From: an uncultured Bacillota bacterium
Lineage (GTDB): Bacteria; Bacillota; Clostridia; Oscillospirales; Oscillospiraceae
DNA: 64,000 nucleotides
Assembly: GCA_947645675.1 (NCBI GenBank)
Contig: CANSDP010000004.1
Location: 1-64,000 of the forward strand
Reading direction: 5' to 3'
Shown here: positions 5,767 to 21,296 of the stretch, one piece after another
Numbering within the stretch: position 1 is the first letter of the stretch
How the letters are laid out: each line of letters starts with the position of its first letter
Made by a program: the position numbers and the translations under genes
The notes under the pieces: model-generated
The model's database searches: none
Told to the model about the DNA's origin: nothing
What the model saw: the letters and a program-made list of their open reading frames with translations, nothing else

Positions 5767-8700
5767 TTTTAATTCATACTCCCCACACGGGGCGACCCGC
5801 CACCACTGGCTAGTTAAGTACGCTTTAAAATTTCAATCCACGCCCCCCTCGCGGGGGGCGACTCCAACATATTCCAGCGGAATACTTTGTCGTCTGAAAT
5901 TTCAATCCACGCCCCCCTCGCGGGGGGCGACGTAGCTAGGGGGTGGAGATGTGAATCAGCTTAAATTTCAATCCACGCCCCCCTCGCGGGGGGCGACAGG
6001 CGTAAATATGGAGACTGCCAGCGGCAGGACGGATTTCAATCCACGCCCCCCTCGCGGGGGGCGACTGGGCGTGCTGTCCATAAACGATGCAAAGGCGCTA
6101 TTTCAATCCACGCCCCCCTCGCGGGGGGCGACATTTCCGTTTCGCTTCCCGGCTCGATAATTCATAAATTTCAATCCACGCCCCCCTCGCGGGGGGCGAC
6201 GACCCGGGCCCAGTTGGCCCCGCTGGCCTGGATAATTTCAATCCACGCCCCCCTCGCGGGGGGCGACTAACGAGGGGCTGGCTTACCTTTGGAGTAAAAT
6301 ATTTCAATCCACGCCCCCCTCGCGGGGGGCGACCGGATTCCAGAGCCTGTGGAGGCTATAACAAATACTATTTCAATCCACGCCCCCCTCGCGGGGGGCG
6401 ACTAACGAGGGGCTGGCTTACCTTTGGAGTAAAATATTTCAATCCACGCCCCCCTCGCGGGGGGCGACCGGATTCCAGAGCCTGTGGAGGCTATAACAAA
6501 TACTATTTCAATCCACGCCCCCCTCGCGGGGGGCGACGCTGTCCCGCTCCGCAAGGCGGTTCTAATTCCGTATTTCAATCCACGCCCCCCTCGCGGGGGG
6601 CGACCCGATAGCACAGCATTTCACGCCTAAAATGGTAATTTCAATCCACGCCCCCCTCGCGGGGGGCGACGGGCGGAACTTTACCAGCGCTATTTTGTAG
6701 TTCTGATTTCAATCCACGCCCCCCTCGCGGGGGGCGACCCCACCAAAAGGGGGTGCGATAATGGAGACAGCATTTCAATCCACGCCCCCCTCGCGGGGGG
6801 CGACGTCGATAGACGGTTTCCTGATACCTGGCAGGGTGGATTTCAATCCACGCCCCCCTCGCGGGGGGCGACGGGCGTTATATGGATGATTTTTATATTA
6901 TCCATATTTCAATCCACGCCCCCCTCGCGGGGGGCGACCATGCCGCCCCCTCCAGCTCCTGGTGGAGCTTCAATTTCAATCCACGCCCCCCTCGCGGGGG
7001 GCGACTTGCCGCTTGCGGGACATTGACGCAAAAATCACAGTATTTCAATCCACGCCCCCCTCGCGGGGGGCGACGCAGGGCATGCTGCAAGGCATGAGCC
7101 CCATGCAATTTCAATCCACGCCCCCCTCGCGGGGGGCGACCTCCACCCACCAGGCACAGGTGGAGCCGTCGTCCACATTTCAATCCACGCCCCCCTCGCG
7201 GGGGGCGACTAGCGCCAATCCCGCCCCTGCCTATGACAATACTATTTCAATCCACGCCCCCCTCGCGGGGGGCGACGCGCCTTTCCCTCCGTTGCCACCG
7301 CGACTACCCATTTCAATCCACGCCCCCCTCGCGGGGGGCGACGTTGGAAACATCAGCGTGCAGACCATTTACAGCGACATTTCAATCCACGCCCCCCTCG
7401 CGGGGGGCGACGGGCTACCCTGGCCGAGTGCCACACTTGGCTGCTATTTCAATCCACGCCCCCCTCGCGGGGGGCGACGCGACCTGACCAGTTTGTACCG
7501 TTACAAGGGCAGCGTATTTCAATCCACGCCCCCCTCGCGGGGGGCGACGGAGACTGGCGACGCCGCCAAGAAAGCGGAAAAGATTTCAATCCACGCCCCC
7601 CTCGCGGGGGGCGACGGGCAATGATATCTCCTATGGGCTTATGGGCCTATTTCAATCCACGCCCCCCTCGCGGGGGGCGACTACAATGTCCTTTGTTCGG
7701 ACGCCGGAGGAGGTGTATTTCAATCCACGCCCCCCTCGCGGGGGGCGACTAGAGCAAGCAAGGCTGTTATTACCGATGTGATAGATTTCAATCCACGCCC
7801 CCCTCGCGGGGGGCGACCGTGGGGCAGTAGGCCGTCTTGCCTCCGCCGTAATTTCAATCCACGCCCCCCTCGCGGGGGGCGACAGGGGGTGCGGTGTCTG
7901 GCGGATTGGGACGCCATAATTTCAATCCACGCCCCCCTCGCGGGGGGCGACTGACACTGAGGACGATCATCAGCCCATCCAGTCTATTTCAATCCACGCC
8001 CCCCTCGCGGGGGGCGACCGGCTACTTTGCGGACAATTAAATTTTCTCTTGGATTTCAATCCACGCCCCCCTCGCGGGGGGCGACACTTATAGCACAGTA
8101 TATAGATGGGGAAATGGGAATTTCAATCCACGCCCCCCTCGCGGGGGGCGACTTTTCCCGCAGCTCCCGGATACTCCCTGCCCCGTAATTTCAATCCACG
8201 CCCCCCTCGCGGGGGGCGACCCGGCTTCAACTGCACCGCCGCGCCGTCCCCGGTTATTTCAATCCACGCCCCCCTCGCGGGGGGCGACGGCAGAGGGGTC
8301 TTTCCCATCTACTGCCCTCAGATTTCAATCCACGCCCCCCTCGCGGGGGGCGACGCGGGACATAGCCTTTCCGTTCTTCCCTTCCGTATTTCAATCCACG
8401 CCCCCCTCGCGGGGGGCGACGCGCCGCTTTGGCGTGACTCAGGCTGTCAGTATCATTTCAATCCACGCCCCCCTCGCGGGGGGCGACGTTGAGCATTAGA
8501 ATTCCTCTCCTCTCACGGGGAATTTCAATCCACGCCCCCCTCGCGGGGGGCGACTGATGTACGCTCGGTGTAGTCAAAAATCCGAAGCGATTTCAATCCA
8601 CGCCCCCCTCGCGGGGGGCGACTTGCTTGCTCCTCAGTGCTGACCCGGACATACAAATTTCAATCCACGCCCCCCTCGCGGGGGGCGACCATGACCCTGC

Positions 8701-10586: not shown

Positions 10587-11245
10587 TCCAGCCCCTCCAT
10601 AGCGGCGGACAGATAATCCGCAACCTTTTTACGGCTCATCAGCTTCGGCAGGCATAAGTCCTTTAATGAGCAGGCGTTGCAGGCGTTAGAGGGCTTCACT
10701 TTGGGGGTATAGCGCCTTTGGTAGAGCTGGTGCATTTCTGTCAGGCTGTCCCGGACCTGTTGACGCAGTTCTGGAGTAAACAGAACCACGGTCCGGCGGC
10801 GTGGCTCCCCGTAGTAGAGCGCCCCCTCCGGGACGGTACAGCAGAGCATCTCCTCCAGACACATGGCCTGGGCGCAGAGTTGCAGTTCATCCGCATTGTC
10901 CTCCTTAGGCTTGCCCCGCTTGTATTCCACTGGATAGGGCTGCCACAACCCCTCCCGGTCTCGCAATGAAATCCCATCCGGGTCCCGGTGAAATTCCACC
11001 GCGTCGCACTGGCCGGAAATGCCCAGCTGCGCTGAATGGATCGCCAGTCCTCTGACGGTCAGGCGGTCCCCCCGACTCTCCCGGAACTCCTGGTCGTGAA
11101 CGCGCTCATGCATGAGATGGCCGTCCACCGTGCGGAAATTCTCCGCCCACTGGTTTTCTATGTGGATCAGCGCCCATTGGCGGCGGCAGAAGGCGAAGTG
11201 CTGCAGCCCTGAGAGCTGGAGCCAGTCCTCCTCTGGCCGGCTCAT
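10583..11245 (-). CDS. cas4: CRISPR-associated exonuclease Cas4
   Basis: MSRPEEDWLQLSGLQHFAFCRRQWALIH..., PVEYKRGKPK, C-terminal CNACSLKDLC; ATGA overlap with the expected in-frame cas7 stop and with the cas1 start; the longer listed ORF start (11335) lies inside cas7. Confidence 0.93.
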   Translation of the reverse strand: MSRPEEDWLQLSGLQHFAFCRRQWALIHIENQWAENFRTVDGHLMHERVHDQEFRESRGDRLTVRGLAIHSAQLGISGQCDAVEFHRDPDGISLRDREGLWQPYPVEYKRGKPKEDNADELQLCAQAMCLEEMLCCTVPEGALYYGEPRRRTVVLFTPELRQQVRDSLTEMHQLYQRRYTPKVKPSNACNACSLKDLCLPKLMSRKKVADYLSAAMEGLE

Positions 11246-12143
11246 ACCATGCGCCGGCAGGTGACGCCGGCCGGCAGGGCGGACTCGTCCACCGTGACCC
11301 GATAGTCCCCATAGGAACGGGCGGGGCGGCATCATCCTTGTCCGTCCGTTCCACCTTCACCGATTCAAAGAGTTTCCAGGCTGGCGCGCAGCCCAGTTCG
11401 GAGTCGTGCTTGAAAATAATCAGCTCCCGCACCGCCATCTTGCCCCGGGCGGCGGAGTGGTCGTGCTCAAACATATTGAGAATTGCCTGCCACAGCAGCT
11501 CCAGATCCTCCTCGGAAAAGCCGGTGGTCTTGCGGGCCAGATTGGCGGAGACATAGCCCTCACAGCGGTAGAGGCCGTAGGGGATGATATACTTGCGGCC
11601 CATCTCGGTTCCTTTCTTCTCCGCATCGGCTTCGGTTGTAATGGCCACACGGGTGATGGTCACCTCCTGAGGCATCACCGGCTCCACACTGCGGGCAAAG
11701 CCCAGCTGCACCGGCCCTCGGACCTGGCCGCAGTTGAGCGCCGCTTTGACAAAGGTGGTCATGACCGCGCCAAAGGTACGGATGTCATAGAAGCTGGCGC
11801 ACATCCAATCCCGAATTTTCTCATCCAAGTGGGAATCGGCCTTTTTCTTCTCCTTGACCGTCTTGTCTGTTACACCCAGCGCTTCATAGGCCTTGGCGTC
11901 GCTGCGATTGAGGGGCGCTCCGTCCTTGATATAAATGCGGTAGCCGTCGGCGTCCTCCTTGACGGTTTCCACATAGTTACGGATCTTCCGCTTCAGGCAC
12001 ACGTCGGTCACCAGCCCCAGGCCGGTCTCCGGGTCCACCCGGGGCATATTGCCCGCGTCGGGGTCTCCGTTGGGGTTTCCGTTCTCTACATCGAAGAGAA
12101 TTACAAATTCATAGCGGTTTTTGATCGGCTCAGACATGTTCAC
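11242..12143 (-). CDS. cas7c: Type I-C Cas7/Csd2, with a -1 frameshift near its 3' end (~11323-11326)
   Basis: MSEPIKNRYEFVILFDVENGNPNGDPDAGNMPR...; as read the ORF runs on to 11106, but another frame encodes the expected tail ARSYGDYRVTVDESALPAGVTCRRMV* ending at 11242. Confidence 0.9.
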
Positions 12144-13872
12144 GTTCCTCCTTTTTTGTATAGCGGGCCTGGGTCTGGTGGTAGTATCCCAGCTGAAACG
12201 CGCCCTGCTGGGGAAGGCTCAGGCGGTCCGGAAAGGTTTCTCCCAGCTTGGCGGTCAAATCAGTCAGCTGTTTGCTGTATGAGATATCAAAGCCCTTATC
12301 CAGCTTCCGCAGATGCTTCTGCGCCAGGTTAATCAGCGTTGGAAACACCCGGCTGGGTGTGGCGGAAGCAGAGTTAAAATATTTGTCCTTAATGGTAGTG
12401 TTGATGCCCGGATTGGCTGAGGACTGGATGGCTTCCAGTACTGAGAACAGCCGGCCCAAGACGTAAGGGATATTAGTGCTGTCCGGATTCAGGGACACGG
12501 TCAAAACCTCCTTTGGTACATCAGGATGTGGATGTTTCAAGTAATACGCTTTCAAAATGGCCGCCCTGCCCCTGGTGATTTCCCGCTCCGCCCGGATGCG
12601 CAGGGAAACGCCGTTAAGCAGTGTGGCGGGATAAGGAGTATCATTCAGAATGGCGCGGAGGGTTTCTCCGGCCATTCCAGGTACAAGGGACTTGTCGCGG
12701 GAATTCTGGTTCACCGTCTCGTCCAGCAGCTTCCAGAGGGGGAGGATCTCAAACTTGTCAAAGGCGGGGCGGACAATTTCCAGCCGTTCCTGGTGGGCCT
12801 GAATGTTTCGTACGAACTCACCGAACGAATTTTTGAGGAAGAACCGCACCGAAAGCCGGGCGGCATTTGGCGACAGACCCAGGATATAAAATGTAGTATT
12901 AGGGTCCAGTTGTGTCTCCTCAAACAGGACCGACCTGCCCTGGCACAGGTCAAGGGCTATTTTTTGCAGGTCAGAGACCGCATAGGTACTGGGAGCGCCA
13001 AACAGGCTTGCCATTGAGAAACTCTGGTAGGCCCGCTGGCCGCCCGATGCCCAAAACAAAACCGTGGTATCTCCGATCCGTCCCACATACTCCCGATCTG
13101 CCAGCAGGTGATTCAGTGCGCTGGTATAGGCAAAGGCCGCGTATTTGCTGGTGGGGGCGTTGAAGCTCTGCTCCTTTCCATAGGAGCAGAAGGCGCCACC
13201 ATTAAAGGACACCAGTGCCGCGCCGCTGGACTGAGCCCCAGCCAATCCTTTGATGGAGGGGTGGACCGCCTCCACGGTCCCCTTTTTCCCGGTAACCAGA
13301 CACACCAGTTCTGGGCCATCTCCGGCTGCGTCATAATAACGTTGCCATGCCGACCGGACCAGGGCATCGTCCTGAAGAAACCCTCCCTGATAGTGAAATA
13401 CCAGATTGGCCCCCGCAAGAATATCCTCCAGCTTGTCCGCCAATACGGGATGTTCCCTGGCTTTTGCCGGGTCCCAGCAGTCAAAGAAGGCCAGCACTGC
13501 CCGGGCCGGCGGGCTGTCCACACCATCTAAAATCTGATGATGGAGCGTTTTACAGGCGGCGAAACACTCCAGGCTCCGCTGCGGCTTGCCTTTTTCGTCT
13601 GTACCCAGAATGTAGCTGGAATTGTCCCACAAAAAATTGGAGGCCACTCCGCTGGATCTTTTGACCGGAGCGGGGAGAGACATGGTTCTGGGAGCCAATA
13701 CCTTCTTCTTTCCTCGCTCCACTTCATTTTTCAGGGAAGCTACCTGTTCTAACTCTCCGGCATCGTTGATGTACAGTGCGTAGGAAATATTGGCGTTGCT
13801 CCAGCCGGGGCGGGCCAGCTTCCCCTGGGCGGCCAGGTCGTCATAGTGCTCCACAAGTGCCTGCAAGATCAT
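12130..13872 (-). CDS. cas8c: Type I-C Cas8c/Csd1
   Basis: 580 aa; MILQALVEHYDDLAAQGKLARPGWSNANISYALYIND..., KRSSGVASNFLWDNSSYILG. Confidence 0.96.
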   Translation of the reverse strand: MILQALVEHYDDLAAQGKLARPGWSNANISYALYINDAGELEQVASLKNEVERGKKKVLAPRTMSLPAPVKRSSGVASNFLWDNSSYILGTDEKGKPQRSLECFAACKTLHHQILDGVDSPPARAVLAFFDCWDPAKAREHPVLADKLEDILAGANLVFHYQGGFLQDDALVRSAWQRYYDAAGDGPELVCLVTGKKGTVEAVHPSIKGLAGAQSSGAALVSFNGGAFCSYGKEQSFNAPTSKYAAFAYTSALNHLLADREYVGRIGDTTVLFWASGGQRAYQSFSMASLFGAPSTYAVSDLQKIALDLCQGRSVLFEETQLDPNTTFYILGLSPNAARLSVRFFLKNSFGEFVRNIQAHQERLEIVRPAFDKFEILPLWKLLDETVNQNSRDKSLVPGMAGETLRAILNDTPYPATLLNGVSLRIRAEREITRGRAAILKAYYLKHPHPDVPKEVLTVSLNPDSTNIPYVLGRLFSVLEAIQSSANPGINTTIKDKYFNSASATPSRVFPTLINLAQKHLRKLDKGFDISYSKQLTDLTAKLGETFPDRLSLPQQGAFQLGYYHQTQARYTKKEEREHV

Positions 13873-14540
13873 CCAATCACCTCCCCGCTGTTTCTGTCCG
13901 GAATCTCCAGCACGCCGTCCCGGAGCGCCGCCCGAAAGAAGAGCGGGGTAATATTCTTCGGGTCGGAGTAGTCCAAGTCCCAGAGCATATACCCCAGGTC
14001 CCGTACTCCCTTCAGCTCCTCCGGACAGGACGGCGGGGCTTCACACGCTTTAAACTGCGCGGGAAATTCCCGGCAGCCAAAATAGGGCTGACTGTAAAAC
14101 TGTCCCCGCTTGATCCTCCGTTTGACAATATCCTGAAACTTTCCGGCGTTGTCGCTGTCCGCAGCCTGGTCCGTGATGTCAAAGTGGGCGTCGATAACAT
14201 AGCGCACATCCCGCAGCAGCATGGCGGCCCGCTGCTGGATATCCTGAGAGGTGGCAAGATACAGCTCTCCCCTCCCCCGCTCCATCACTGTTCGGGCTAA
14301 CCGGGCGCTGATGGTAGATTTCACCTCGTTGCGCCGCAGGTTGGTAAAGCGGATGGGGGCGCAGACGTGGATGCGGTCAATAACCCAGTGCATTCCGGGG
14401 TGCCAGTAGATACTCTCCAACAGCCCCCGGGCGGCGGAGGGCGTCATGATATCGTAGCTGACCCGTTCCGTCTTCATTTCCGGGCGGGTGAAACAGGCAT
14501 AGTCTCCCCAGACCTCCAATGAAATTGGCATGGCGTTCAC
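13869..14540 (-). CDS. cas5c: Type I-C Cas5 (Cas5c/d, crRNA-processing)
   Basis: 223 aa; SLEVWGDYACFTRPEMKTERVSYDIMTPSAARGLLESIYWHP. Confidence 0.96.
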   Translation of the reverse strand: MNAMPISLEVWGDYACFTRPEMKTERVSYDIMTPSAARGLLESIYWHPGMHWVIDRIHVCAPIRFTNLRRNEVKSTISARLARTVMERGRGELYLATSQDIQQRAAMLLRDVRYVIDAHFDITDQAADSDNAGKFQDIVKRRIKRGQFYSQPYFGCREFPAQFKACEAPPSCPEELKGVRDLGYMLWDLDYSDPKNITPLFFRAALRDGVLEIPDRNSGEVIG

Positions 14541-14607
14541 TCCTTTCTGTTTTTGTCACTGAAAAACACGTTCTGTCCTACTGGCAGGACCATGATCAAA
14601 GCGCAAA

Positions 14608-16761
14608 CTAAATTGCGAGAAATTTCCCTTCGTCCGCTGTCGTTGACAGTCCCGTTGTACTGTCGTACAGCGCCAGGTTGGTCAGAACCGCGCTTCCATC
14701 CTCCAGCACTTCCAGGTCACCTGCCATGTCCAGAGCCTTGAAGTGTTGTGGGTAGACGGATACGCCGTACTGGCCCAGCGTCCGGAACAGCTCCCTGCTG
14801 CGCTCGCCGGAACGGAGCCGCCGGACCAGCTCCTCCCCTTCTTCCAGGGGGATATATACGATTTTGGTTTCACTGTCAATCAGGTGAAACCGCTCCGCAA
14901 TCCTCCGGAAGGGCATAAATTCCCGCTCCATAACTGTGAGGATGTTCTTTTGGTCCAGGGCTTCCGGGCCTTTCAGGTCCAGCAGTTCCTGGAAATAGCA
15001 CCGGATGGCCTCCTGGCTGTCCGGTTGGTCATAGCGGCGCAGTGCCTGACGCCCCGCGGCCACGGGCAGTTCAAATAGAGACGGCGGAGGGGTTTCGCTC
15101 TGAAATATGGTGACGATGCTCTCCCCGGCAGGACGTTTCCCCTCCCGGTTGCACCGGCCCGCCGCCTGAAGAATGGAATCCAGTCCCGCCTCCTCCCGGA
15201 ACACTGCGGGAAAGTCCACATCCACTCCGGCCTCGATCAAGGAGGTGGATACCACCCGGCAGGGCAGGCCGTCCTTTAGCCGGCTCCGGATCTCCTTCAG
15301 CATGGCCTTCCGGTGGGCGGGGTACATCAGGGTGGACAGATGGAAGGCTCCCTCTTTGTCCAGCAGGCCGTAGACCGTCTGTGCGCTTTTACGGCTGTTG
15401 ACAATGCACAGAGCCTGTTTTTGACCGCCGATCCGCTCCGCCACAGTCTCCCAGGACAGCTTTCCTTCCCTCCGGAAGGTGACACGCTGGAATATCTCCT
15501 GATGGAACATCTCTCGAGGGCACAGCTCGACCGCAGGCCGGTCCGGCAGAAATTCCCGGAATATTCCGTCCAGCGCAGGTTGAGTGGCGGTACACAGCAC
15601 AGCGGAAGCGCCATAATCCTTGACCAGCTGGGCAATGGCATAGACGCAGGGACGGAGATAAGGGACGGGCAGCATCTGCGCCTCGTCAAAAATAATGACG
15701 CTTTGGGCCAGATTGTGTAGCTTGCGGCACTGGGAGGAGCGGTTGGCAAAGAGGGACTCAAAAAACTGTACCGCCGTGGTCACCACCACTGGCATGTCCC
15801 AGTTTTCGGTCGCCCTGACCCGTCTGGCATTCTCCGGCTTGGCTTCGTCCTCAATATCGTACAGAACACCGGAATGATGCTCCAACACATTCTCATCTCC
15901 CAGGATATCCCGAAAAACCTGGGCGTTCTGCTCAATGATGGAGGTATAGGGAATCACATAAATCAACCGGCGCAGTCCATGCGTGCGGGCGTGACGCAGT
16001 GCAAAGGCCAGCGACGCCACCGTCTTGCCTCCGCCTGTAGGGATGGTCAGGGTAAACAGTCCCGGACTTTGGACCTCCCCCTGTTCCATGCAGCGCTCCA
16101 AAATCCCACACCGTTCCCGGTTCAGATCGCTCTGAGGCGGGAACCAGTTGGAGATATGAGCCTGGAGCTTGTCCTCCAGCATCTCCATCGGGTCTCCCCC
16201 GCCCCGCTCCTTCTCTCCTCCCGCCATAAAGGTCTCTGTATCCAGAAAGTCCCCATCCACCAGACAGGAATAGAGCATCCTGGTAAAAAACATCTCCTCC
16301 AGCGGACTGGAGAACCTCTGTTTGGGGACGGCGGGCAGCTTGAACTCCTTCTCCCAGGCCCCGTAGGGCTCCAGTTTTCCCAGGGCGGCTCTTCTCATGC
16401 GTCCCCAGAAGGTCCCCTCTTCCCAGTGATCCCCCTGTCCACCCCCATCGGGCAGGCCGCCGTGGTGCCCCGCTACGGCGAAAGCGGAGCAGATCTGTTC
16501 CAGCTTGCAGCATTCCGCCGCGCCGGCAGTGGCGTGATCCACATGCTCTGTACTCCCCTGGAGCCGGCGCTGGAAGGCTGCGGAATATTTCCCCAGGTCA
16601 TGGGCCAGTCCGGCAAGCCGTCCCTGGTCCTCCGCTCTAAAGGCGGCAGCAAATCCAGCACACAACTCCGCCGTTCCATCCAGGTGCTCTAACACGGTCT
16701 GCCTGCGTCCATCCTGGGAAACATGGGCAAGATGTACCATTTTATCCCACTTCCTTTCCAC
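14608..16761 (-). CDS. cas3: CRISPR-associated helicase/nuclease Cas3 (HD + DExD/H)
   Basis: 717 aa; HD motif LAGLAHDLGKYSAAFQRRL, Walker A LTIPTGGGKTVASLAFAL, IIFDEAQMLP, LIEAGVDVDFP, QAAGRCNREG. Confidence 0.97.
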   Translation of the reverse strand: MERKWDKMVHLAHVSQDGRRQTVLEHLDGTAELCAGFAAAFRAEDQGRLAGLAHDLGKYSAAFQRRLQGSTEHVDHATAGAAECCKLEQICSAFAVAGHHGGLPDGGGQGDHWEEGTFWGRMRRAALGKLEPYGAWEKEFKLPAVPKQRFSSPLEEMFFTRMLYSCLVDGDFLDTETFMAGGEKERGGGDPMEMLEDKLQAHISNWFPPQSDLNRERCGILERCMEQGEVQSPGLFTLTIPTGGGKTVASLAFALRHARTHGLRRLIYVIPYTSIIEQNAQVFRDILGDENVLEHHSGVLYDIEDEAKPENARRVRATENWDMPVVVTTAVQFFESLFANRSSQCRKLHNLAQSVIIFDEAQMLPVPYLRPCVYAIAQLVKDYGASAVLCTATQPALDGIFREFLPDRPAVELCPREMFHQEIFQRVTFRREGKLSWETVAERIGGQKQALCIVNSRKSAQTVYGLLDKEGAFHLSTLMYPAHRKAMLKEIRSRLKDGLPCRVVSTSLIEAGVDVDFPAVFREEAGLDSILQAAGRCNREGKRPAGESIVTIFQSETPPPSLFELPVAAGRQALRRYDQPDSQEAIRCYFQELLDLKGPEALDQKNILTVMEREFMPFRRIAERFHLIDSETKIVYIPLEEGEELVRRLRSGERSRELFRTLGQYGVSVYPQHFKALDMAGDLEVLEDGSAVLTNLALYDSTTGLSTTADEGKFLAI

Positions 16762-16954: not shown

Positions 16955-17001
16955 GAGGGGCGGGGATCGGACTGTAATGTCCGATCCCCGCCCGATAATT
17001 T
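16955..17001 (-). terminator. Rho-independent terminator downstream of the 17.0-19.3 kb minus-strand genes
   Basis: gggcggggatcggactgtaatgtccgatccccgccc hairpin, followed by a U-tract on the minus-strand transcript. Confidence 0.7.
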
Positions 17002-17178
17002 TTATTTTTTGAGCTTCTTGCCGCTCAAGTGAATCTCAGGGACCGCTACATTGTCATAGCGGATCTCCTCCTGACCGTCCTCCAACTCGTCCGTCTCGGA
17101 CGCCGTGCCGGTCAGGACCTCGGGGACAGCCAAGTCCTCGATGCGTACGTGAAGCTTGGGGTCCTTCTCATTGCTCAC
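17002..17178 (-). CDS. Small hypothetical protein, 58 aa, GTG start (absent from ORF track)
   Basis: VSNEKDPKLHVRIEDLAVPEVLTGTASETDELEDGQEEIRYDNVAVPEIHLSGKKLKK*; between the TAXI-GltS stop and a terminator. Confidence 0.55.
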   Translation of the reverse strand: MSNEKDPKLHVRIEDLAVPEVLTGTASETDELEDGQEEIRYDNVAVPEIHLSGKKLKK

Positions 17179-17193
17179 AGAAAACCCTCCCTG

Positions 17194-19338
17194 TTACAGA
17201 AGATTGATGAAAAACGTGATAGTCAGGCTGTTAATAAAATCGGCGAACATACTGCCCACGATTGGAACCAGAATATAGGCCTTGACCGACGGTACAAAGC
17301 GGTCGGTCAGCGCCTGCATATTGGCCATAGCGTTGGGCGTAGCGCCCATGCCGAAGCCGCAGGTGCCGGCGGCCAGGACGGCGGCGTCATAATTCCGGCC
17401 CATGACATTGTAGACCACGAAATAGGAGAAGAGGAACATCAGCACTACCTGCACCACCAGCAGGATGATCAGCGGCACGGCCAGGGCAGCCAGCTGCCAC
17501 AGCTTCAGGGTAATCATGGCGATGCCCAGGAAGAGGGACAGGCAGATGCCGCCGATATCGTTAATCTCCCCCATGGGGACCTCAAATTTTCCTGTAAATT
17601 CGCTGAAATTACGCATCATAGCGGCGATAATCATAGCGCCGATGTACACAGGGAAATTCATACCCGTTTTGGACAGCAGCCAGGAGACCACCGTGCCCAC
17701 GCCCATAGCGATGGCAATCTGATAAGCCGCGGGGGCGTAGCCGCGGACGGAGCGGTGATGCTTTTGCTCATCCTCTACCAGGGGGCCGTCGTCTACAGGG
17801 ACGGCGGTTTTCAGCAGATCATGCTTCAGAATCAGCCTGCGTCCCAGAGGGCCGCCCATGAGTGAGCCGCCAATGAGTCCGAAGGTAGCCGCCGCGGTAC
17901 ACAGGGTACTGGCGCCCTCCAGACCCAAGTCCTCCAGCACCGGACCGAAAGCGCCCGCTGTACCGTGTCCGCCCACCATAGGGATGGAGCCGGTACACAT
18001 GCCGATGGCCGCATCCACCCCCATCACCTGGGAGAAGCCCATAGCCGCCGCATTTTGGAGGACGATCAGCGCCGTGACGCAGACCAGGAAGATCAGCAGG
18101 CTGACGCCGCCGCTTTTCAGCACCTTCAGGTTGGCCTGGAAGCCCACAGAGGTGAAAAACATCACCATACACACCGTTTTCAGCGTCTCGTCAAAGGACA
18201 TCTCCATGACGCCAGCGACGTAGAGGACGCAGGACAGGATGGCGAAGATCAGTCCGCCCACCACGGGGGACGGGATACAGAAGGTCTCCAGGACCTTGAC
18301 CCGCTTTTTCAGCCAAGCACCCAGATAGAGGACCACCACGGCGATGGCCAGGGTCTGATACATATCCAGGGACAGCTGGATGGGGAACATAGGCCCGCTC
18401 TCCTTCGGGGCCCAGACCTCTACCGTGATTCCTTGTTCCTGATAGTACTCCGCCGCCCCCGGGTGGAAGGGGATGGGGACGGACAGAATGCCCCCGGCGG
18501 GGTCCAGACCCCCGCCGGGCAGAGCGCCGCCATTTTGATACAGTGTGGCGGTAATCCGCTTCACCACAGCGGCGTCCAGATCATTTCCAGCCACCAGAAC
18601 AGCCTGAACGCCCAGGGTTGTGACGTCCTCCCCCTGTCCCTGGTAGGTTCCCGCAGGGACGGTACAGGGGGCATACCAGGGATAGAGGCTGGTCAGCTGG
18701 TCCACCGACCGCTGGTCGATGGACAGCAGCTGGATATCCAGCTTTCCGGCCAGATCGGCCACCGCATTTGTGGGCGCGCCCGCCGTGCAGAAGAAGGCGT
18801 CGATCTCCCCGCGCTCCATGGCGGCGGCGGAGTCAGAGAAGGACAGGCGGCTGGCCTGGAGCATATCGGTGGTCAGTCCGCTGGCCATCAAAATTTGCTC
18901 CGCGTTCCGGGTCACGCCCGACTCCAGCTCACCAATGGAAACCCGTTTTCCGGCCAGCTCGGCCACCGAGGTGATGCCGGAATCCTTGGTCACCACGATC
19001 TGACAGGCCTCGGTATACAGGCCGGCCACCGCGCTGTAATTGGCTCCGTCCTCCTTCGAGGCGTATTGCAGGGCGTCGCTCTGAACAATGGCCAGGTCCA
19101 CCATACCTGTTTGCAGCAGGCGCAGGTTGGCCTCCGAGCCGGTGGTCACCTTCACCTCTACCGCACTGCCAGTGTCGTTCTGGAGCTGTGGGGCCAGCGC
19201 GCTGCCGAAGGCATAGTAGGTGCCCCCGGTCCCCCCTGTGCCGAAGCGCAGCTCGTCCGTCTTGCTGCCGCACCCGCTCAGGCAGGACAGCAGCAGTCCG
19301 GACAGCAGCAGCGCTGTACACATACGCCGTAATTTCAT
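17194..19338 (-). CDS. Fusion: TAXI-family solute-binding lipoprotein + GltS-type sodium/glutamate symporter
   Basis: 714 aa; lipobox LSCLSGC; LRFGTGGTGGTYYAFGSALA (TAXI); from ~aa 330 a GltS-like membrane domain (IPSPVVGGLIFA, GSIPMVGGHGTAGAFG, MGRNYDAAVLAAGTCGFGMGATPNAMANMQALTDRF). Confidence 0.9.
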   Translation of the reverse strand: MKLRRMCTALLLSGLLLSCLSGCGSKTDELRFGTGGTGGTYYAFGSALAPQLQNDTGSAVEVKVTTGSEANLRLLQTGMVDLAIVQSDALQYASKEDGANYSAVAGLYTEACQIVVTKDSGITSVAELAGKRVSIGELESGVTRNAEQILMASGLTTDMLQASRLSFSDSAAAMERGEIDAFFCTAGAPTNAVADLAGKLDIQLLSIDQRSVDQLTSLYPWYAPCTVPAGTYQGQGEDVTTLGVQAVLVAGNDLDAAVVKRITATLYQNGGALPGGGLDPAGGILSVPIPFHPGAAEYYQEQGITVEVWAPKESGPMFPIQLSLDMYQTLAIAVVVLYLGAWLKKRVKVLETFCIPSPVVGGLIFAILSCVLYVAGVMEMSFDETLKTVCMVMFFTSVGFQANLKVLKSGGVSLLIFLVCVTALIVLQNAAAMGFSQVMGVDAAIGMCTGSIPMVGGHGTAGAFGPVLEDLGLEGASTLCTAAATFGLIGGSLMGGPLGRRLILKHDLLKTAVPVDDGPLVEDEQKHHRSVRGYAPAAYQIAIAMGVGTVVSWLLSKTGMNFPVYIGAMIIAAMMRNFSEFTGKFEVPMGEINDIGGICLSLFLGIAMITLKLWQLAALAVPLIILLVVQVVLMFLFSYFVVYNVMGRNYDAAVLAAGTCGFGMGATPNAMANMQALTDRFVPSVKAYILVPIVGSMFADFINSLTITFFINLL

Positions 19339-19443
19339 TTCCGTTTCTCTCCTTTTTTCACATATTCCCCTCCCTCTCCTCGGGGGCGGTTAGGGATAGT
19401 ATACAGAGACAGCCGGTGTTTGTCAATTTGAAAAATGGAAAAA

Positions 19444-20460
19444 TTATAGCCGGTCACGCCGGGTCAAAATACCCCAGAAGGAGACCACCCCGATCCAGCC
19501 CAGGCCGGTTGCCAGAGCCACGGCGGGCAGTCCCATCCCGGGGGCCAGCAGGAAGGACAGCGCCGCCCGCAGGGAGATATGACCTGTGGCGCCGATCACC
19601 GGGATGTTGACCCAGTCCCGGCCCCGAAAATATCCCGCCTGTCCGCTGCCCAGGAAATTGAACAGGTAGAAGCAGGCCACCAGCCTCAGATAGCCCACAG
19701 CCGGTCCCAGCGCTGCCGCATCCCCGGCGGGCAGGACCAGCCTCAGACAGGGCTCCGCCCCCCCGAGCATTACCAGAGACATGAACAGGCCAAAGCCCGC
19801 CAGCAGTCTCTGTCCGGCGCGGAAGCCCTCCTTCACCCGCGCGCTCTCCCCCGCTCCGGTATTTTGCGCCACAAAGACGGCCACAGCCGCCGAGCCGCTG
19901 TCTCCAAAGGAATTGGCAAACCCCTCCACCCTGGTGGCCGCGGTAAAGGCGTTGATGGCATCCTCCCCCAGGGTGTTTACCGTCCCCTGAACCAGCAGCT
20001 TCCCGATGTACAGACTGCACATATGCAGCGCGGATACGAAGCTGAAATGGGCGGTCTGCCGGAGCAGAGGCCGGTCCAGCACCATGTCCGCCCGGTGGAA
20101 CATCAACTGGGGAAACCGGTCACGCAGGAAGCCCGCACACAGCACAGCGGCCAGGGCCTGAGCCAGGGTGGTGGCCAAAGCCGCCCCCGCCACGCCCATG
20201 GACAGGCCGGCCACAAAGACCAGGTCCAGAATGAGGTTTACGCCCATGGACAGGGACAGGAAAAAGAGCGCGGCCCTGGTATTTCCCACCGCCCGGAGTA
20301 CGCCGGACACCAGATTGTACGCAAAGGCGGCGGGAAAGCCCAGAAAAATAATCCTCAGATATTCGGCGGCATAGACGGCCACGCGGTCCGGAGTCCGAAG
20401 GAGGACAAGCAGAGGCTCCAGAACCAGCAGCCCCAGGAGGGTCAGCGGCGGCGCGCGCAC
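19444..20460 (-). pseudogene. MATE family efflux transporter, 5'-truncated
   Basis: 338 aa, begins mid-protein (LTLLGLLVLEPLLVLLRTPDRVAVYAAEYLRI...VLRAVGNTRAALFF); roughly 100 N-terminal residues expected for MATE are absent. Confidence 0.75.
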
Positions 20461-21296
20461 TGTACATCACCCAGCCGGCGGTGAGCCGTCATCTGCGTGC
20501 CCTGGAGGAGAATCTGGGCTGTGCCCTGGTGGTCCGGGGGCGGGACCAGCGGCGGACAGAACTCACCAGCCAGGGCCGGGACTTTGTTCAAGTGGCGGAG
20601 AAGTGGCTTCTCCTGTGGCAGGAGGCCCGGGAGGTATCCGGGCGGGACAGAACGCGAACCCTCCGGGCGGCCTCGGTGGGCAGTCTGGCCTCCTACCTCC
20701 TGCCCCCGGTGTTCCGCGCCTTTCTGGAGGAGGCCCCGGGCCGGACCCTCACCTTTCACAACTATCACTCCCGGGAAGCCTATGACTATGTGGCCCAGGG
20801 GCTGGCGGACATCGCCCTTATTTCCGACCATATGTATCACACTCAGGTGGAGACCATCCCCGCCTTCCGCTCCCGAATGGTTCTGCTCACCGGGCCCGGG
20901 CTGGATTGGGCGGAGACGGTCCACCCCTCCGCCCTGGACCCCTCCCGGGAGCTGCGCCTGCCCTGGAATCCGGAGTATGATCTGTGGCACTCCTTCTGGT
21001 TCAGCTCCGCCGCCGCCCCTCGGGCGGTACTGGACCAGATGTCCCTGTTGGAGGAGTTTTTTTCCTGGCAGGACAGCTGGTGGGACAGCTGGGCTGTCGC
21101 TCCGGCGGTTGCAGCCGTCCCTCTGGCAAAAAAGCTGGGGCTCACCGTCCGAACACTGGACAGCGGCCCCGCCGATGAAATCATCTATTATCTCCAGGGC
21201 CCCCGACGAAAGGAGACGCTTGTCCGGCATTTCCTCGCCTGCCTGGACCGGGAGTTAGCTCGAAGGCCGGAAATACAGTCGTTGCTTAACCTGTAA
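20445..21296 (+). pseudogene. LysR family transcriptional regulator, 5'-truncated inside the HTH
   Basis: Open frame reads AAARALYITQPAVSRHLRALEENLGC...; roughly the first 25 residues of a LysR HTH are missing; substrate-binding domain follows. Confidence 0.75.

Follow-up and report, generated by a model that had tools for sequence, protein, structure and literature searches.

A TAXI–GltS fusion protein and its motif-bearing downstream gene in an uncultured member of the Oscillospiraceae

The 64,000-nucleotide stretch analyzed here (the window; positions 1 to 64,000 of contig CANSDP010000004.1, assembly GCA_947645675.1, an uncultured gut bacterium of the family Oscillospiraceae) carries on its minus strand an open reading frame (ORF) of 714 aa that joins a TAXI solute-binding domain to a GltS-type symporter (19338..17194, stop included). 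The frame begins with ATG and is uninterrupted, as a previous sequence-only reading of this DNA had described it; all peptides quoted there were found in the ORF, and the frame at 17194–19338 stands, with the strand, which had not been given, corrected to minus. Along the minus strand, the encoded protein comprises a lipoprotein signal peptide (residues 1–23, 19270..19338; LSGC lipobox with Cys23), the TAXI domain (residues 29–305, 18424..19254), a linker (residues 306–319, 18382..18423) and the GltS domain of the ESS family (residues 320–714, 17197..18381). The same strand continues with a small conserved gene of 58 aa (17178..17002), passed over by the sequence-only reading and recognized by ORF search, alignment, and profile searches, which starts with GTG behind a GGGAGGG sequence resembling a ribosome-binding site and encodes two LAVPE(V/I) motifs. 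Directly after it lies a computed terminator-like hairpin with a 15-bp stem (16958..16993, minus strand), whose symmetrical stem scores on the opposite strand too. Sixty bp upstream of the fusion, a sigma-70-like promoter (19398..19426, minus strand; TTGACA, 17 nt, TATACT) matches the consensus in 11 of 12 positions, in a region that holds three such sites versus 1.0 ± 1.1 in shuffles. Judged by these consensus sites, the fusion and the 58-aa gene form one putative promoter-to-terminator unit. Type I-C CRISPR cas genes (Cas7c, Cas8c, Cas5c, and Cas3) occupy 11106–16761 on the same strand, downstream of the unit. On the other side, at 20440–20490, a MatE-type gene (minus strand, 19444–20460) meets a LysR-type gene (plus strand, from 20481) head to head. 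Both seem to lack their N-terminal parts, the LysR helix-turn-helix matching only profile positions 31–60, and the site looks like a breakpoint, either a contig chimera or a rearrangement.

Domain searches bore out the TAXI and GltS assignments that had been made by eye, as both curated models scored above their cut-offs. Pfam placed NMT1_3 at residues 32–303 (E = 6.6e-63) and Glt_symporter at residues 323–682 (E = 4.9e-110). Among NCBIfam models, TRAP_TAXI (TIGR02122) matched residues 9–303 with 246 bits (cut-off 84; profile positions 9–320 of 320) and the gltS equivalog (TIGR00210) residues 323–713 with 353 bits (cut-off 311; profile positions 2–396 of 398), which divides the protein at about residue 310. 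The TAXI domain starts at residue 29–32 and, in Pfam and NCBIfam, shows neither extra N-terminal nor helical dimerization domains; the GltS domain contains the GGHGTAG and CGFGMGATPNAMANM motifs. The LSGC signal, with Cys23 invariant in 15 aligned fused homologues, predicts that the TAXI part is lipid-anchored outside the membrane. The linker differs in sequence and length among the fused homologues. In an AlphaFold2 model built from 46 homologous rows (mean pLDDT 86, below 50 at linker residues 313–317), pTM was 0.55; the two domains are thus well modeled individually, and the placement of receptor relative to symporter is not informative. The modeled TAXI domain superposed on two TAXI structures with bound glutamate, 8u79 and 1us4 (TM-score 0.87 to the target, rmsd 2.1 Å, 32% identity). 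In VcGluP, residues Q93, Y45, and S75 have the largest effect on glutamate affinity, and E125, Y200, and M201 have minor effects (PMC11574862). These six align to Q86, Y41, S68, E110, C184, and T185 of the fusion; four of the six contacts are kept, and the two minor positions Y200 and M201 are Cys and Thr. Across the 15 aligned fused proteins, Y41, Q86, and E110 never vary and S68 hardly does. From this conservation, the ligand is likely L-glutamate or a close analogue, and the Cys and Thr substitutions could shift ligand preference.

To place the locus among its relatives, we surveyed the best 80 homologous loci on contigs from one genome per species, of which 26 were fused and 54 carried TAXI and then gltS as adjacent genes on the same strand. 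A search of all downstream ORFs recovered a relative of the 58-aa protein directly after gltS in 59 of the 78 loci with enough sequence, in fused and split loci alike. The pattern used, x(E/D)NLAxPE(I/V)H, occurred twice in 37 of these proteins, once in 21, and three times in one; the window's protein has two copies of NLAxPE(I/V)H. Paired copies are usually 27–38 residues apart, and among the aligned proteins with two copies, the A, P, and E do not vary in either copy. In Selenomonadaceae, the protein has about 80 aa and a single copy near its C-terminus. The core [LV]A[VILMFY]PE[IVFY] had 87 matches in the 700 nt that follow gltS, spread over 57 loci; elsewhere on either strand of the 947 kb of fetched sequence it was not detected, except for the window's own copies in L001 and L003. 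Nine of ten pairs gave dN/dS values of about 0.07–0.39 (the remaining pair, the window versus L006, was saturated at silent sites), so the small gene is, by this measure, under purifying selection. No family matching the 58-aa protein was detected in Pfam or NCBIfam and no match in the PDB, and a search of the open-access literature (subscription papers mostly lay outside its scope) found no paper containing the motif letters; the protein apparently represents an undescribed partner of this GltS subfamily. AlphaFold predicted no secondary structure or fold for it and higher confidence at the two motifs, a pattern as would be expected of linear motifs.

Profile searches in three overlapping sets of genomes (399 sampled from the phylum, 247 from the order, and 301 from the family) detected the small protein only in G000, G722, G747 (coordinates identical to the genome of L013), G861, G110, and G231. 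All six encode a GltS with 66% identity or more, that of G861 being a decayed remnant. This TAXI-GltS remnant (L104, G861:C18) has a truncated GltS followed by one surviving motif copy. A divergent copy of the small protein was found in G820, whose GltS has 65% identity, and GltS proteins of 43–52% identity (L088–L094 and L107–L112) lack it. In G231, the motif protein lies beside a GltS of 66% identity in a genome with no TAXI match, indicating that the small protein follows GltS rather than TAXI. Each of 16 positive genomes had one small-gene locus, except for one weak extra match in G941, where the region contained no motif. In other species, the position directly after gltS is taken by a larger protein with NLAxPE(I/V)H at its N-terminus. 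Four unrelated types carry this tag: M20 amidohydrolases (L047, L072), nitroreductases (L030, L034, L038), isochorismatase-family hydrolases (L037, L053, L062, L076), and a TSCPD protein (L064).

The presence of the small gene tends to go with a motif in GltS itself. Where the gene is present, the central loop that joins the two five-helix halves of GltS has the sequence LVE(D/E)ExKHxR or a near match; in the window, this is LVEDEQKHHRSVRGYAP (residues 520–536, 17731..17781, minus strand), a candidate docking site by loop and gene co-occurrence. Loop motif and gene were both present in 61 cases and both absent in 20, with seven loop-only and two gene-only cases (Fisher p = 3e-12, which overstates the evidence because the rows are related); in the two gene-only cases, KKHR is one step out of register. 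Both are lacking in the Pseudoflavonifractor group (L009–L011, L070, and L008, whose contig ends early), in Fibrobacter, and in some singletons. With clades of the 80 loci taken as the unit, about five losses fit this joint pattern and two go against it, those in Lachnoanaerobaculum and L045, where the loop motif is kept and the small gene absent; L023 could not be cleanly judged. The small gene thus tends to be lost together with the GltS central loop motif, a tendency confounded by shared ancestry. With the receptor outside, the helix order of the model would put the central loop inside the cell. The central loop of E. coli GltS is known to be cytoplasmic, its topology having been the subject of papers from 2007, and, going by the title of a 2011 study by Krupnik and colleagues, reportedly modulates turnover.

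Its position in those 59 of 78 loci, the restriction of the motif, purifying selection, the single locus per genome, and co-variation with the loop together tie the 58-aa protein to this GltS, and we consider it reasonably likely that the two work together, the small protein acting as a second, cytoplasmic component of the transporter system. That the ORF is instead an unrelated gene or a leader peptide, kept beside gltS with no physical or functional contact to the transporter, is unlikely, even though the missing predicted fold and the absence of the gene from Lachnoanaerobaculum, the Pseudoflavonifractor group, and Fibrobacter would agree with it. Such a bystander is at odds with a motif restricted to the position after gltS across several families, with selection on the gene, with four protein types tagged at the same position, and with its tendency to vanish along with the loop motif. 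How a cooperating 58-aa protein would act is a more tentative matter. It may dock on the GltS central loop, although we would not put this above a minority chance; the two NLAxPE(I/V)H peptides would then bind the loop, one per protomer of the dimer, and modulate turnover, and an enzyme with the N-terminal motif tag would be brought to the transporter. The broader proposal, which we advance with the same caution, is that NLAxPE(I/V)H could be the loop-docking motif of this GltS subfamily, with the bivalent 58-aa peptide regulating the dimer and the grafted tag recruiting hydrolase, nitroreductase, isochorismatase-type, and TSCPD proteins.

The receptor half of the system has a published precedent. 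Jaques et al. (Commun Biol 2025; PMC12344293) described TAXI-GltS proteins and reported fused proteins in Lachnospiraceae, 14 InterPro entries for the fusions, gltS-linked TAXI proteins of conventional size, and nanomolar L-glutamate binding by a Bordetella TAXI protein coupled to gltS. The same source presents binding-protein-dependent elevator transporters as a known pattern and states that functional TAXI-GltS coupling still needs experimental proof. Neither the architecture nor a receptor that feeds the symporter is therefore new, which answers the question of prior description that the sequence-only reading had left open; its premise, GltS working without any binding protein, is no longer true of every GltS, given the TAXI-coupled gltS of that report. 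Bordetella pertussis BP0403/BP0402 and the Lachnoanaerobaculum saburreum fusion also couple a TAXI receptor lipoprotein to GltS, and the latter (L060 in our alignment) has the same order of N-terminal TAXI and C-terminal GltS. BP0403 has additional N-terminal and helical domains, whereas the TAXI domain of the window's fusion is of conventional size and lacks them. The window's clade, made up of Lawsonibacter and Colidextribacter relatives, is a different one, and its fused forms fall separately from that of L. saburreum; the 58-aa motif gene that follows the fusion here is missing from Lachnoanaerobaculum, and we found no mention of it in the parts of PMC12344293 that were searched. The receptor of TAXI TRAP transporters (VcGluP-QM, TtGluBP, TAXI Pm-PQM) is homologous and shares the main residues of the glutamate site, but their membrane partner is a DctQM/TRAP protein instead of GltS (ESS). 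Only one TAXI gene was found in the assembly (82% complete), and its four DctM-type genes all lie on other contigs, so the TAXI domain is paired here with GltS and not with TRAP. Stand-alone GltS proteins such as that of E. coli (ESS, TC 2.A.27; PF03616) share the full gltS equivalog match and the GGHGTAG and CGFGMGATPNAMANM motifs; the window's protein adds the N-terminal receptor and belongs to the subfamily with the LVE(D/E)ExKHxR central loop and the companion gene.

On these grounds, the product of the ORF is probably a TAXI-GltS transporter, a membrane-tethered Na+/glutamate symporter that depends on its binding protein. Its TAXI domain, held by a lipid anchor, would close on L-glutamate outside the cell and present it to the GltS elevator, to which it is covalently joined at the likewise external GltS N-terminus; glutamate would then be handed over and taken up with Na+. 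Fusion would keep one receptor per symporter and may raise affinity or uptake rate. The earlier suggestion that the tethered receptor feeds GltS is well supported by the conserved glutamate site and the published relative (PMC12344293). That the TAXI domain instead serves as a sensor or allosteric cap, gating GltS and not feeding it, appears distinctly improbable: GltS is known to work alone and the same genome encodes GltS relatives without any binding protein, so delivery is not strictly needed, yet the receptor has a conserved glutamate site, which fits the substrate of GltS, and elevator transporters that depend on binding proteins have been described (PMC12344293).

The fusion is genuine, neither a missed stop nor a private assembly error. 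An assembly or frameshift artefact joining two genes, for which a possible contig join might speak (near window position 20455, some 1.1 kb upstream, where two genes are truncated head to head), has a negligible probability, and independent genomes refute it as far as the architecture is concerned: the same fused ORF recurs in isolates and MAGs at 52–82% identity. The junction is open in 26 of the best 80 loci, including the isolates Colidextribacter sp. OB.20 and Lachnoanaerobaculum spp., and the two-gene arrangement with a missed stop that the sequence-only reading had named as a fatal outcome did not appear. On the GltS tree, the fused state requires at least three label changes, and grouping all fused forms in one clade is rejected (p-AU 0.003). 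The count fell from four to three when L040 was relabeled from split: its frame is fused but for a stop codon, which falls in the C-terminal part of the TAXI domain (gltS open frame 6934–8193). Nonsense mutation, sequencing error, and recoding are all possible origins of this stop. L013, a split locus in which TAXI and gltS share a frame and are separated by one TAG codon plus nine bases, is sister to the fused clade that includes the window's protein (Lawsonibacter, Colidextribacter, and relatives). A second fused set, from rumen and horse-gut Clostridia together with L041 (labeled Desulfovibrio), has a TAXI domain without the last ~30 residues. The segment IPFHPGAAEYY, with which the TAXI domain of the window's protein continues toward its C-terminus, is absent from the fused proteins of L030, L036, L041, L051, L061, and L067. 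Fusion is rare, with one case among 301 sampled genomes of the window's family and none in five congeners. A GltS of 79% identity in G722, a genome of another class, suggests horizontal transfer.

Three further ideas did not hold or were weakened. Stop read-through in the split loci was rejected: TAXI and gltS are in frame there, but ranking loci by a single alignment favors such spacing; we read these loci as coupled genes, since an unbiased case (G110) is out of frame and the stops often overlap or precede a Shine-Dalgarno-like sequence. Replacement of a missing periplasm as the sole reason for fusion is weakened, not refuted, by L041, whose genome encodes two Omp85 proteins but no LpxC and may be misbinned; the genomes of the other fused loci tested lack Omp85. 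Glutamate dehydrogenase was dropped as a general neighbor, being seen only in L041 (9947–11326) and L006 (9335–12112, two copies).

The fusion is thus genuine and of a published kind, and the companion motif protein, undescribed so far as our searches reached, is the part worth following. The survey extends TAXI-GltS fusions beyond the 14 InterPro entries given in the 2025 report and indicates that the fused state has changed more than once. The companion gene offers a lead, its motif being limited to one transporter subfamily; it could explain how the central loop sets GltS turnover, the regulation of which becomes testable with a short peptide. Should the docking and recruitment proposal be true, uptake would be connected to bacterial metabolism through a system of short linear motifs.
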